This document shows, in pieces, positions 52,211-57,126 of a DNA stretch of 64,000 bases. The translations under genes were made by a program, and so were the position numbers. The notes beneath the pieces were generated by a model. The model had not been told where the DNA came from, did no database searches, and saw nothing but the letters and a program-made list of their open reading frames with translations. Every line of letters starts with the position of its first letter. Positions within the stretch are counted from its first letter, which is position 1. The DNA is from Alistipes sp. (GTDB lineage Bacteria; Bacteroidota; Bacteroidia; Bacteroidales; Rikenellaceae), in contig JAGAMA010000019.1 in assembly GCA_017624955.1 (NCBI GenBank), forward strand, positions 62,001-126,000. The letters are read 5' to 3'.

Positions 52211-54676
52211 TTACGAACGCACGACAGCGCCACACTTCTGCTCGAACTGACGTTGCAGGTTCGACATCACGCGCTCGATCGTCTTTTCGTCGAGCGTGCG
52301 GGTCTTATCCTCGAGCAGGAAGCTCAAAGCATACGACTTCTTACCCTCGGGGAGCTTGTCGCCCTCGTAAACATCGAACAGCGAGACACGCTTCAGCAGC
52401 TTGCGCTCGGTCTGCAGGGCCACCTCACGCAGCTCGGCAAAGCTTACCGAACGATCTACGAGCAGGGCCAGGTCGCGCTTCACCTCGGGGAACTTCGAAA
52501 GCTCCTCGGCCTGGATGCGGTGCTTCTTCGTAGACTTTACCAACAGGTCGAAGTTCAGCTCCAGGAAGTAAACCTCCTGCTTCACATCGAGCTTCTTTCT
52601 CAACTTCTGACTCACAACACCGATCTCGAGCAGCTTCTTACCATTCAGCTGAACAGCAATTGCCTCACTGTACAGATCGCTCTTCAGCGGCTCGCACTTC
52701 AGCGTATAGATATCCTGACCAAAGCGCTTGAGGAGCTTCTCGGCCATAGCGCGCAGCGTAAAGAACGAGGCTTTGAGCGGCTTGGTATCCCACGACTGGG
52801 GCACAGCAACACCCGTTACGGCCATTGCCAGACGATACTCTTCGTCGTAGGCAGCCAGGGGATTCTCCTCGGTCGCCTTCTCGGCATTGTAGAAGTAGCA
52901 ATTACCAAACTCGTAGAGCTTCAGGTCGGCGTGCTTGTGGTTGATGTTGAGGGCCATGGCCTCCAACATGTTGAACAAGAGCGTCTGGCGCATCACATTC
53001 AGGTCGGCACTCAGCGGATTGAGAATCTTCACGCAGTTTTCCGCCTTGTAGCTCTCCAGCCCCTCGTAGTAGGCCGCCTTGGTGAGCGAGTTGGACATAA
53101 TCTCCGTATAACCGTTGGCCGTCAGGAAGTCGGCCGAGAGGTTCATCAGCTTCGTGCGATCGGGGCGCGGAGCATACGAAAGGGTCGAGCGAACCTGCTG
53201 CGGAATCTCTACGTTGTTGTAACCATAGATGCGCAGAACATCCTCCACCAGGTCGGCCTCGCGCTGTACATCGACACGATAGGGCGGAACGGCCACGGTC
53301 AGCACGCCCTCGTTTTCGCCGAGCACCTTGACCTCCAATGCCTCGAGGATCGTCATCACGGTCTCGGTCGGGATCTCCTTGCCGACGAGCATCTTCAGTC
53401 GCTTCAACGAGAAATCGAAGACAAAATCCTTGGCCGGCTCGTCGCAGATGTCGATAATCTCGGACGAGATCTTACCACCGGCAAGCTCTTTGAAGAGCAG
53501 CGCGGCACGCTTCAGCGCGAAGACCTGCATACGGGGATCGACACCACGCTCAAAGCGGAACGAGGAGTCAGTATTCAGGCCAAAGCGCTTGGCCGTCTTG
53601 CGCACCCATACGGGGTTGAAATAGGCACTCTCGAGGAAGACATTGACCGTCTCATCGCTCACACCCGAATCCAGACCGCCAAAGACACCACCGATACACA
53701 TCGGGCGCTCGGCCGAGCAGATCATCAGATCCTTCTCCGTGAGCTTGCGCTCCACACCGTCGAGTGTCACGAAGGGCGTACCCTCCGCGCAGGTGCGAAC
53801 CACAACCTCCTTACCCTCGATCTTATCGGCATCGAAGGCGTGCAGGGGCTGGCCCAGCTCGAAGAGCACGAAGTTCGTAATATCGACCAGGTTGTTCTTG
53901 GGGTTGATACCGGCAGCACGCAGCGAGTTCTGCATCCACTCGGGCGAAGGGGCGATCTTGCAATCGGTAATCGAAAGACCCGTATAGCGAGGCGCAGCCT
54001 CCTTATTCTCCACGCGCACCTTGATCTCCAGGTCGTGGTTATCGACCTTAAACTCCTCGACCGAAGGCCACTGAAGCTCGGCAGGGATATTGTTGGCCTT
54101 AAGGTAGGCATAGAGGTCGCGGGCGACACCGATGTGCGAGGCGGCATCGACACGGTTCGGCGTAAGGCCGATGGCTATCAGGTAGTCATCCTCGATGTGG
54201 AGGTACTCCTTGGCCGTCGTGCCGACCACAGCATCGGCCGGAAGCTCCATAATGCCGTCGTGCGACTCGCCGATACCGAGCTCATCCTCGGCGCAAAGCA
54301 TACCGAGCGACTCCACGCCGCGAATCTTCGAGCGCTTGATCTTGAACTCCTCGTCACCGCCGTTGGGGTAGAGCACCGTGCCTACCGTAGCACAGAGCAC
54401 CTTCAGGCCCTGGCGGCAGTTCGGCGCACCGCAGACAATACCGAGCGGAGCCTCGGCACCCACATCCACGGTCGTAATGTGGAGGTGATCCGAATCGGGA
54501 TGATCCTCACAGGTCAGCACTTCGCCAACCACGACACCCTTCAGACCGCCCTTGATCGTTTCGATCTTCTCGAAGCCCTCGACCTCGAGGCCGATATCGG
54601 TCAGAATCTTGGCAATCTCCTCGGCCGAAAGATCGGTCTTGAGATAGTGTTTAAGCCAATTGTAGGAAATATTCAT
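52211..54676 (-). CDS. pheT: Phenylalanyl-tRNA synthetase beta subunit
   Basis: 821 residues in full-length bacterial PheT order: N-terminal coupling and tRNA-binding EMAP domain (VGEVLTCEDHPDSDHLHITTVDVG), B3/B4 editing region, B5 (VRVDVQREADLVEDVLRIYGYNNV), the catalytic-like core, and C-terminal ferredoxin-fold anticodon domain (LSKFPEVKRDLALLVDRSV). Monocistronic; pheS is not in the window. Confidence 0.97.
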   Translation of the reverse strand: MNISYNWLKHYLKTDLSAEEIAKILTDIGLEVEGFEKIETIKGGLKGVVVGEVLTCEDHPDSDHLHITTVDVGAEAPLGIVCGAPNCRQGLKVLCATVGTVLYPNGGDEEFKIKRSKIRGVESLGMLCAEDELGIGESHDGIMELPADAVVGTTAKEYLHIEDDYLIAIGLTPNRVDAASHIGVARDLYAYLKANNIPAELQWPSVEEFKVDNHDLEIKVRVENKEAAPRYTGLSITDCKIAPSPEWMQNSLRAAGINPKNNLVDITNFVLFELGQPLHAFDADKIEGKEVVVRTCAEGTPFVTLDGVERKLTEKDLMICSAERPMCIGGVFGGLDSGVSDETVNVFLESAYFNPVWVRKTAKRFGLNTDSSFRFERGVDPRMQVFALKRAALLFKELAGGKISSEIIDICDEPAKDFVFDFSLKRLKMLVGKEIPTETVMTILEALEVKVLGENEGVLTVAVPPYRVDVQREADLVEDVLRIYGYNNVEIPQQVRSTLSYAPRPDRTKLMNLSADFLTANGYTEIMSNSLTKAAYYEGLESYKAENCVKILNPLSADLNVMRQTLLFNMLEAMALNINHKHADLKLYEFGNCYFYNAEKATEENPLAAYDEEYRLAMAVTGVAVPQSWDTKPLKASFFTLRAMAEKLLKRFGQDIYTLKCEPLKSDLYSEAIAVQLNGKKLLEIGVVSQKLRKKLDVKQEVYFLELNFDLLVKSTKKHRIQAEELSKFPEVKRDLALLVDRSVSFAELREVALQTERKLLKRVSLFDVYEGDKLPEGKKSYALSFLLEDKTRTLDEKTIERVMSNLQRQFEQKCGAVVRS

Positions 54677-54723
54677 ATCGCGTACTTTATTTGTATTTGT
54701 CTAAATGAGCGCGTAAAGATACA

Positions 54724-54768
54724 AAAATGAATTAAGAATTAAAAATTATGAATTAAGAATTAGGAAAA
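54724..54768. repeat. AATTAAG-type heptad array upstream of pheT
   Basis: AATTAAG AATTAAA AATTATG AATTAAG AATTAGG, period 7, just upstream of a near-consensus minus-strand -7 box (TATCTTTA). Confidence 0.8.
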
Positions 54769-54811
54769 ATTGCCCATGCGCAGTAAAAACATCTCGCTTA
54801 CACAATTTAGA

Positions 54812-54843
54812 TTTGGATTTTTGGATTTCATTTTCTAAATTTG
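54812..54843 (+). promoter_or_regulatory. Promoter of the trp leader and trpB2
   Basis: TTTG (54812-54815), 20 bases, TAAATTTG (54836-54843). Puts the transcription start near 54849, about 15 bases before the leader peptide ATG. Confidence 0.7.
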
Positions 54844-54863
54844 TGAAAACAAACCGCACGAAA

Positions 54864-54926
54864 ATGTTCGTAACTCTTACTCTGCAGGCTTGGTGGTGGC
54901 GTCCGCTCGTCTCTCGTGAACAATGA
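54864..54926 (+). CDS. Trp leader peptide (attenuator control peptide)
   Basis: A 20-codon reading frame, MFVTLTLQAWWWRPLVSREQ and stop, with three consecutive Trp codons (TGG at 54891-54899). It follows a good promoter, precedes an intrinsic terminator (54966-55005) and trpB2 (55042). The distance from the Trp codons to the terminator (about 70 bases) is that of classical trp attenuators. By the standard mechanism, ribosome stalling at the Trp codons when tryptophanyl-tRNA is scarce would prevent the terminator. The frame is too short to be sure by coding statistics; the evidence is WWW plus position plus terminator. This covers the 365-base gap between pheT and trpB2. Confidence 0.85.
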   Translation: MFVTLTLQAWWWRPLVSREQ

Positions 54927-54965
54927 GGGCCGCTTGGCCGTGCGCAGTACAGAACCTAAAACCGC

Positions 54966-55005
54966 AACCCGTTGTTTACGATAAGTAACAGCGGGTTTTT
55001 ATTTT
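54966..55005 (+). terminator. Trp attenuator terminator
   Basis: Stem AACCCGTTGTT / AACAGCGGGTT of 11 base pairs (one G-T), followed by TTTTTATTTT, 37 bases before the trpB2 ATG. I could not settle by eye which upstream segment forms the antiterminator; a GGCC-GCTT-GGCC hairpin lies at about 54928-54939. Confidence 0.85.
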
Positions 55006-55041
55006 GCATTTACACGTTTTTATTCCATAAAACTATTCGCC

Positions 55042-56403
55042 ATGAAGACTAAAAAATTCATTCTTCCGGAAAATCAACTGCCGACCGCGTGGTACAACCT
55101 CATAGCCGACATGCCCAACCGCCCGAATCCCTACCTGAATCCCGTGACACGCAAGCCGACAACGGTCGATGACCTCTCGGTCCTGCTGGCCGAGGAGTTG
55201 GCTCGTCAGGAGCTCTCGACCGAGCGCTACATCGAGATTCCCGAAGAGGTGCAGCAGATCTATCGCATCTGGCGACCGGCGCCGTTGGTGCGCGCCGTGG
55301 GGCTGGAGAAGGCGCTCGACACGCCGGCCAAGATCTACTTCAAGAACGAAGGCGTATCGCCCGTGGGTTCGCACAAGCCCAACAGCGCCGTACCGCAGGC
55401 CTACTACAACGCCAAGCAGGGCGTACGTCGCCTCACGACCGAGACGGGCGCAGGGCAGTGGGGTTCGGCCCTTTCGTTTGCCGGCAATCTGTTCGGTCTC
55501 GATGTTGAGGTCTTCATGGTGCGCGTGAGCTACGACCAGAAGCCCTACCGCCGACTGATGATGCACACCTGGGGTGCGGAGTGCTACGCCTCGCCAACCG
55601 AGCTGACCGCCTCGGGACGTGCCGCCCGCATGGCCGATCCGCATGCAGCAGGCAGCCTCGGCCTGGCCATTTCGGAGGCTGTGGAGCGTGCCCTGGAGGA
55701 TCCCGAGGGAACGCGCTACTGTCTGGGTAGTGTGATGAACCATGTGCTTTTGCATCAAACGATTACGGGCGAGGAGGCCATTCTGCAGATGCAGATGGCC
55801 GATGCCGAGCCGGATGTGGTGATCGGCTGCATCGGCGGAGGTAGCAACTTTGGCGGTATTGCTTTCCCGTTCCTGCGCAAGAACTTCTGCGAGGGGAAGA
55901 AGATCCGCGTTGTAGCCGTCGAGCCGGAGAGTTGTCCGAAGCTCACACGCGGTATTTTCCAATACGACATTGGCGATGTGTCGGGTTACACGCCACTGAT
56001 TCCGATGTACACGCTCGGTCACGATTTCCAACCCTCGGCAATCCATGCCGGAGGCCTGCGCTACCACGGAGCGGGTGCCATCATCAGCCAGCTGCTGCAC
56101 GACGGAGCAATCGAAGCGACGGCTATTCCGCAGACCGAGACGATGAAGGCGGGCGTACTCTTTGCCCGTACCGAGGGTATCATTCCCGCCCCCGAATCGA
56201 CCCACGCCATTGCCGCAGCGATCCGTGAGGCGCAATGGGCCAAGGTGGAGGGACGCGAAAAGACGATCCTGTTCAACCTCTCGGGTCACGGCACGATCGA
56301 CCTCTACGCCTATGAGCAGCACCTGGGCGGTCATCTGCAGGACTACGTTCCCTCGGACGAGGAGATTGCCCGCACGGTGCAGCAGTTGGAGCGGATCATC
56401 TAA
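55042..56403 (+). CDS. trpB: Tryptophan synthase beta-like subunit TrpB2
   Basis: 453 residues. The PLP lysine is Lys112 in GVSPVGSHKPNSAVPQAYYNAKQG; the phosphate loop is GCIGGGSNFGG. The length and SHKPNSA, LSGHGTIDLYAYE motifs place it in TrpB2, which usually works without TrpA and condenses indole with serine, i.e. indole salvage. It stands alone between its attenuator and a terminator with no other trp gene. The Trp-codon leader makes tryptophan-dependent control nearly certain. Confidence 0.95.
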   Translation: MKTKKFILPENQLPTAWYNLIADMPNRPNPYLNPVTRKPTTVDDLSVLLAEELARQELSTERYIEIPEEVQQIYRIWRPAPLVRAVGLEKALDTPAKIYFKNEGVSPVGSHKPNSAVPQAYYNAKQGVRRLTTETGAGQWGSALSFAGNLFGLDVEVFMVRVSYDQKPYRRLMMHTWGAECYASPTELTASGRAARMADPHAAGSLGLAISEAVERALEDPEGTRYCLGSVMNHVLLHQTITGEEAILQMQMADAEPDVVIGCIGGGSNFGGIAFPFLRKNFCEGKKIRVVAVEPESCPKLTRGIFQYDIGDVSGYTPLIPMYTLGHDFQPSAIHAGGLRYHGAGAIISQLLHDGAIEATAIPQTETMKAGVLFARTEGIIPAPESTHAIAAAIREAQWAKVEGREKTILFNLSGHGTIDLYAYEQHLGGHLQDYVPSDEEIARTVQQLERII

Positions 56404-56416
56404 ACGAGTCTATACA

Positions 56417-56459
56417 AAAAAACGAGCGTGTTTGATGGATTCAAACACGCTCGTTTTGC
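56417..56459. terminator. Bidirectional terminator after trpB2
   Basis: Long stem AAAACGAGCGTGTTTGA / TCAAACACGCTCGTTTT; serves the convergent lipoprotein gene as well. Confidence 0.9.
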
Positions 56460-56471
56460 TTAACGCCCTCT

Positions 56472-57053
56472 TCAATCGTTATCTTCGACATCATAGCCAC
56501 CTTCGGGATCGACCTTCACGACATAGGCGAAGTTGCGTGTCCACAAGGCAAGCTCGGCCTTGAGTGCCGCCTCAAATGCGGCCGGATTAGTCGGATCGCA
56601 GGGTAGGGTTACGCTGTGGCGCTCGATATCGGGGCTCTCCATCCAGTGCACCTTGCCATCCGTGCGGTACTCCTTAAACTCCTCCGTAAGAGCCATCTGC
56701 AACGTGTAGCTCGTCTTGTCGTAAGTGACACCCTCCTTGGGCGTTACCGATACGCCAATTTGAAAGTCGGCAGGCAGAGCATCGGCCTCAAAGACCTTTT
56801 GCCAACGCTTCGTCGTCAGTGTCTCCTCTTTTGGGGTCATCGTGCCATCCGCAGCGGCCTCCTCGTAGCTGAAGGTTACGTCGGCCAAGGCCAGCACATC
56901 GTCGCTCACCTCGTAAGTGAAGGTGAACTCCATCTTCTCAAAGTCATACTTCTTGCCCGAATCATCGGACGAATCACACGCCACGACCACCACGGCAGCC
57001 GCCAGCACCACCAGACACGCCAAGAAGGCGCTTCTCCATACATGTTGTTTCAT
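56472..57053 (-). CDS. Lipoprotein of unknown function, ECF operon neighbour
   Basis: 193 residues, signal with lipobox VVAC then DSSDDSGKKYDFEKMEF. The mature part is rich in beta-strand-like and acidic stretches (FTFTYEVSDDVLALADVTFSY; GVSVTPKEGVTYD) and carries a single possible immunoglobulin-like or NigD-like fold. I do not recognise the family. It starts 73 bases after the sigma/barrel gene pair and may be the third gene of that operon. Confidence 0.7.
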   Translation of the reverse strand: MKQHVWRSAFLACLVVLAAAVVVVACDSSDDSGKKYDFEKMEFTFTYEVSDDVLALADVTFSYEEAAADGTMTPKEETLTTKRWQKVFEADALPADFQIGVSVTPKEGVTYDKTSYTLQMALTEEFKEYRTDGKVHWMESPDIERHSVTLPCDPTNPAAFEAALKAELALWTRNFAYVVKVDPEGGYDVEDND

Positions 57054-57126
57054 ACCTTGTAACATTGATTAAGTGTTGTTGCAAGGCAAGGGTGCAAATA
57101 TCGGGCAAAACAGGCCTTCGGGGAGA

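Follow-up and report, generated by a model that had tools for sequence, protein, structure and literature searches.

In the classic attenuator of the enterobacterial trp operon, the position of the ribosome decides between an antiterminator and a terminator. The element described here, upstream of a trpB2 gene in an Alistipes sp. genome, resembles that system (Rfam family RF00513, Trp_leader) in its leader with tandem Trp codons and in an antiterminator and an intrinsic terminator that share an arm. Unlike it, the trpB2 element appears to control a single, isolated gene in organisms that lack a trp operon, and a 1:2 protector stem finds no clear support in it. The RF00513 model scored 15.4 bits (cut-off 41, E-value 2) against the 64,000-nucleotide stretch of DNA that we analysed, hereafter the window.

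The Bacteroid-trp RNA (RF01692), listed in the available part of PMC2864571 (Genome Biol 2010), is likewise found in Bacteroidetes and has Trp-rich leaders such as MRTILVNTYWWWHS. It matched 26 of 295 genomes sampled from the order at an E-value of 0.001, 15 of them over the cut-off. The next ORF, assigned by its start and confirmed by family search for three of the proteins, was trpB1 in 19 cases, trpE in five and another ORF in one; the remaining match ran into a contig end. The same model had no match in 180 genomes of the genus under strict filters, in the window, or in 60 loci scanned directly. Bacteroid-trp is the trp-operon counterpart of the trpB2 element, which works alike and, by score, is not a member of that family. 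A sub-cut-off Bacteroid-trp match (L188, minus strand, 1501-1644) has the leader MIKQSGYTFWWWRLTINRFVRS and a terminator-like hairpin; the next ORF of more than 150 aa, about 230 bases on, encodes 203 aa and is not trp-like, and the match is possibly orphaned. Rfam searches at 60 loci (20 of the genus at an E-value of 0.1; 20 of the genus and 20 of the order at gathering cut-offs) returned no match, and those of the window only chance-level ones. For T-boxes, there was no gathering match in the window and none at an E-value of 10 in 54700-55100.

In Corynebacterium diphtheriae, candidate attenuators were predicted upstream of trpB1EDGC and trpB2A, according to the accessible portion of PMC1262725. 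The trpB2A case is similar in that a Trp attenuator is predicted before the second trpB copy, but there, in a different phylum and as far as that portion describes it, trpB2 shares an operon with trpA and thus serves biosynthesis, rather than being a lone gene. The available text of PMC2395257 considers that some marine bacteria would have no need of attenuation for their detached trp genes, whereas the trpB2 of the window is a detached trp gene with what is very probably an attenuator. A table in the accessible part of PMC9026213 has a class with TrpAB only and none with a lone TrpB. Our search of the open-licence literature found no report of an attenuator at a lone trpB2. The mechanism is known; the searchable literature seems to contain no report of its target here, of the RNA element or of how widely the element occurs.

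The elements of the locus are, in order:

54812..54815, plus strand: TTTG, candidate -33 promoter element of Bacteroidetes type, 20 bases before the -7 candidate
54836..54843, plus strand: TAAATTTG, candidate -7 promoter element (TAnnTTTG), kept in most genus leaders
54864..54926, plus strand: leader peptide frame MFVTLTLQAWWWRPLVSREQ, 20 codons, ATG at 54864, stop codon TGA at 54924-54926
54891..54899, plus strand: three tandem Trp codons (control codons), read from the sequence
54914..54928, plus strand: arm 2, the antiterminator's 5' arm, overlapping the leader stop codon (duplex energy, pairing counts)
54967..54976, plus strand: arm 3, 5' arm of the terminator, ACCCGTTGTT; 54968-54981 doubles as the antiterminator's 3' arm (fold, pairing counts)
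54987..54996, plus strand: arm 4, 3' arm of the terminator, AACAGCGGGT, then a T run to about 55005 (fold, pairing counts)
55042..56403, plus strand: trpB2, encoding a TrpB-like PLP enzyme of 453 aa (family-model scores)

The encoded protein scores over the cut-offs of the TrpB2-type models NF009057 (694.9 bits, cut-off 366) and TIGR01415 (587.5, cut-off 518.85) and under that of the trpB1 model TIGR00263 trpB (141.2, cut-off 392.45), which places it in the TrpB2 type. Its nearest solved chains (6hul, 4qys, 6hte) are named tryptophan synthase beta chains. The gene stands alone, as the sequence-only reading had said: both the upstream neighbour (52211-54676, pheT by eye) and the next large downstream ORF that we took as a gene (56472-57065) are on the minus strand. 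Between trpB2 and the latter lies a terminator-like hairpin of 17 pairs (56419-56457), which the scan lists on the minus strand.

The leader frame with three consecutive Trp codons is present as that reading described it. We compared it with the regions upstream of the 86 mechanically called ORFs of the window that are at least 150 aa long. A weak test, asking for a short ATG frame with at least two Trp in five residues, was passed upstream of six of the 86; with at least three Trp in five residues, the only upstream frame was the leader at 54864-54926.

For the promoter, a sigma-70 scan found nothing, and in its place we take the TAnnTTTG element; this and the TTTG at 54812-54815 presumably represent the Bacteroidetes-type -7 and -33 elements. 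Of 62 genus leaders, 60 have TAnnTTTG no more than 110 nt before the Trp codons, as compared to a mean of 5.3 and a maximum of 12 in 50 shuffles.

The terminator, previously described as clear, is formed by a stem of 54967-54976 with 54987-54996 and the T run, which ends about 37 bases 5' of trpB2. It is missing from a simple terminator scan because its 10-base loop exceeds the range of 3-8 bases that the scan allows. The fold of the leader region has a z-score of -2.10, with 5 of 200 shuffles equally good, and the whole leader folded alone prefers the terminator. An antiterminator, which the sequence-only reading did not resolve by eye, is present as well: 54914-54928 pairs with 54968-54981 at -18.8 kcal/mol (z-score -4.3, equalled by none of 300 shuffles). 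Since it takes up most of the 5' arm of the terminator and overlaps the leader stop codon, the two predicted hairpins are mutually exclusive, and a ribosome at the stop codon would cover arm 2.

Both hairpins are conserved in the genus. Over 60 sequences, the terminator has 99.2% of its cells paired (at most 67.2% when slid) and 84 cells changed on both sides, against 28.2 after shuffling; for the antiterminator the corresponding values are 94.8%, at most 52.5%, and 39 against 7.0. The arms were located by motif, and arms 2 and 3 hardly vary in their core, so that the covariation rests on flanking pairs; the shuffles behind the pair counts ignore relatedness, for which the slid versions are the sole control. 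In single leaders, the antiterminator duplex reached p ≤ 0.05 in 49 of 62 from the genus, the other 13 having p above 0.05. A textbook 1:2 protector stem has no clear support, with 72.4% of cells paired and no covariation in the same 60 sequences; in silico, it does not hold arm 2 off arm 3 in the untranslated leader of the window.

These counts derive from a set of 180 genomes of the genus, 74 of which have a TrpB2 match. We judged 68 convincing and set aside G006, G027, G079, G083, G143 and G147, which have only weak matches or matches of 32% identity. Leaving out the partial genes of G041, G162 and G179 gave 65 loci, and removal of L012 and L031, which lack upstream sequence, left 63 upstream regions, each 400 bases or longer. 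One of these has no leader (L041), leaving 62; one fails the terminator motif (L064), leaving 61; and one identical row was dropped, leaving 60 for the pair counts.

Conservation of Trp codons among homologous leaders, for which a search upstream of trpB2 in related genomes had been suggested, is pronounced. At least two adjacent Trp codons occur in the leaders of 62 of the 63 upstream regions. A short ATG frame with at least two Trp in five residues was likewise found in 62 of 63 (mean 3.0, maximum 6 in 40 shuffle rounds), and a frame with at least three Trp in 48 of 63 (mean 0.03, maximum 1). The leader at trpB2 is real, far beyond chance. The letters GTGAACAATGA are retained although their reading frame differs: they give SREQ and a stop in L001-L005 and L008 and LVNNE in, for example, L009-L011 and L024-L025, so that it seems to be the RNA, and not the peptide, that is conserved there. 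The exceptions are L041 (G033:C12), a trpB2 without a Trp leader in the 450 bases upstream, and L064 (G065:C8), where a leader is followed by an unrelated terminator and a TAG lies inside the trpB2 match; this gene is possibly decaying.

A covariance model of the element, R1, had exactly one match above 50 bits in each of 64 of the 180 genomes. Of these strong matches, 63 share a contig with trpB2 and precede it by 12-65 bases, and the remaining one (G132) is at a contig end, as is the end of the trpB2 of that genome. Because 61 of the 64 genomes also supplied R1, the added information is the absence of strong matches elsewhere: by this model, the genus has them at trpB2 only. Four genomes with TrpB2 lack a strong match, namely G010 and G041, where the upstream sequence is not assembled, G033, which has no leader, and G065, with a leader and a different terminator. 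At an E-value of 0.01, R1 matches 97 of 180 genomes, 33 of them only weakly (under 30 bits). We took the weak matches, including second rows of 18-36 bits and a minus-strand match in the window (54958-55043), for chance or for the hairpin read backwards.

Conservation in gut Bacteroidales had been raised as a possibility, and the Trp-rich leader does extend beyond the genus. In the order sample of 295 genomes, 108, including that of the window, have a TrpB2 match, and we examined 102 upstream regions; the sample omits partial or broken trpB2 genes of G267, G289, G296, G325 and G430. A Trp-rich leader is present in 43 of the 102 (shuffles: mean 4.2, maximum 9), and three Trp in five residues in 34 (mean 0.13, maximum 2). 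A strong hairpin accompanies 38 of the 43 leaders, whereas only 4 of 59 regions without a leader have one (p = 5e-18, ignoring relatedness). These four (score 26 or more) are L132, which has a TTG-start frame with WSW that falls outside our leader rule, and L069, L134 and L140, whose hairpins we read by eye as ends of upstream genes, that of L140 being the end of a tRNA-like sequence. In several order leaders (from L149-L160), Arg or Cys residues separate the Trp codons (WRWRW, WCW) in place of plain runs, for example in MSCFTNTSTWIWRWRWQSFRTML. The antiterminator is less certain outside the genus, with p ≤ 0.05 in 15 of 38 leaders and above 0.05 in 23. We also looked at the best 80 of 435 named relatives, a group that shares members with the genus set; 79 have upstream sequence, and the leader is present in 67 of these. 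Close relatives among those named are Alistipes and Rikenellaceae genomes; the carriers include Butyricimonas synergistica, a Sanguibacteroides, an uncultured Odoribacter and several Paludibacteraceae.

The metabolic setting bears on what trpB2 does. A trpA gene over the cut-off was found in 1 of 180 genus genomes (G011), with mere 18-24 bit fragments in 11 others; all 14 control genomes were positive in this search. In 36 leader-bearing genomes, picked mostly for completeness and searched for trpA, trpB1 and trpC, both trpC and trpB1 exceeded the cut-off only once, in G011, and the trpB matches of roughly 130-150 bits in the other 35 are TrpB2 itself. Since these 35 have none of the three genes over cut-off, TrpB2 is probably their only tryptophan synthase, as judged by the family models. 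The view of TrpB2 as an enzyme outside the tryptophan operon holds in that the gene is a lone one, but TrpB2 here is probably not an extra enzyme beside a trp operon. In G011, besides the trpB2 attenuator, a Trp-rich frame (with NNAWWWRLQFSVVSDLPRVVVER) lies just upstream of trpB1 (L217, G011:C6:26000-35500); RF01692 has no match in that genome.

Outside the genus, loss of the operon is no precondition for the leader, given that 19 of the 39 order genomes with a leader and a hairpin (score 20 or more) have trpA, and we rejected the idea that the leader occurs only where the trp operon was lost. The corresponding number for genomes without them is 46 of 63 (Fisher p = 0.019, ignoring relatedness).

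The tryptophanase model TIGR02617 matches 123 of 180 genus genomes at an E-value of 1e-50, none of them over its cut-off. In the genome of the window the protein is TnaA by NF053783 (901.3 bits, cut-off 750), and a tyrosine phenol-lyase model also scores on it, below its own cut-off. The cell could therefore obtain indole through its own tryptophanase or from neighbours. By eye, there is no TnaC-like leader upstream of tnaA in this genome.

In agreement with the sequence-only reading, we have high confidence that the element is a ribosome-mediated Trp attenuator controlling the lone trpB2. RNA polymerase would start near 54850, and a ribosome would translate the leader. With charged tRNA-Trp plentiful, the ribosome would reach the stop codon and cover arm 2, so that arms 3 and 4 form the terminator and trpB2 is off. 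With charged tRNA-Trp scarce, it would stall on the Trp codons, and arm 2, left free, would pair with arm 3 ahead of the synthesis of arm 4; the terminator would then come too late, and TrpB2 would be made and would convert indole and serine or O-phosphoserine to tryptophan. Sequence comparison shows the leader, its control codons, the promoter-like element, the two mutually exclusive hairpins with a spacing suited to such a choice by the ribosome, the restriction of strong matches to trpB2 in the genus and the lack of the tested trp genes; the start site, translation, stalling, the dependence on tRNA-Trp charging, the kinetic choice of structure and indole as the substrate are what we infer.

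This spacing was evaluated in silico for 61 leaders, by removing the RNA up to 13 bases, the footprint of a ribosome, from the start of the A-site codon. With the ribosome on the first or the last Trp codon, arm 2 is free and the antiterminator is predicted to form before arm 4 in 61 of 61; with the ribosome at the stop codon, arm 2 is covered and it forms in none. In untranslated leader RNA it forms in 39 of 61, among them that of the window. The terminator is favoured at equilibrium in all 61 when the RNA is untranslated or the ribosome is on the last Trp codon or the stop, and in 60 with the ribosome on the first Trp codon; antitermination must therefore be kinetic.

The advantage of the terminator at equilibrium would also fit a constitutive terminator that yields a short leader RNA or an sRNA, the Trp frame being a relic. 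A relic frame is at odds with the joint retention of leader, antiterminator and terminator across diverged sequences and with the co-occurrence of leaders and strong hairpins in the order sample, and we give this explanation hardly any credence. The leader might instead encode a TnaC-like nascent peptide that arrests the ribosome on free tryptophan, so that trpB2 would respond to Trp excess. TnaC has a conserved arrest sequence around one Trp and a C-terminal Pro, and is not known to come with an intrinsic terminator. A short leader with Trp residues before an indole-related gene and the tryptophanase in the genome of the window are reminiscent of such a system; however, unlike in an arrest peptide, the Trp run has variable flanking residues and the frame in which the carboxyl end is read differs between leaders, and what follows is an intrinsic terminator whose antiterminator is conserved. 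On reading these variable ends, the Trp run and the terminator, we rejected the identity with a TnaC arrest peptide; making more TrpB2 under Trp excess would also have little metabolic sense. This origin of the element seems to us extremely improbable.

The attenuator could also be real while the main reaction of TrpB2 is another β-replacement or serine chemistry rather than indole salvage, Trp shortage merely being the cue. TrpB2 enzymes elsewhere depend on O-phosphoserine, according to the part of PMC11917138 available to us (citing Busch 2014), and the accessible portion of PMC1854888 mentions serine deaminase as a proposed second function, yet also reports poor serine deaminase activity of TrpB2o proteins. 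A Trp-specific switch points to Trp as the product, and the names of the nearest solved chains argue in the same direction, as does the fact that 35 of the 36 leader-bearing genomes have no trpA, trpC or trpB1 exceeding its cut-off. We consider this alternative unlikely, if less so than the two above.

The attenuation of a lone trpB2 may have a broader meaning, on which our judgement is evenly poised: the trpB2 elements would make up a family of Trp attenuators that is not yet catalogued, is old and occurs widely across Bacteroidales, and is dedicated to lone trpB2 genes, and where de novo synthesis was lost, indole scavenging would be a lifeline regulated by Trp-tRNA and opposed to the cell's own tryptophanase. 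If this is true, such bacteria could switch between releasing and consuming gut indole. The trpB2 attenuator itself is an RNA element missed by current Rfam models, and it offers a compact test case for how ribosome and RNA polymerase are coupled in Bacteroidota. It would give lone trpB2 genes a physiological role, and it makes uncharged tRNA-Trp the likely signal for the conversion of indole to Trp in gut bacteria without the tested trp genes.
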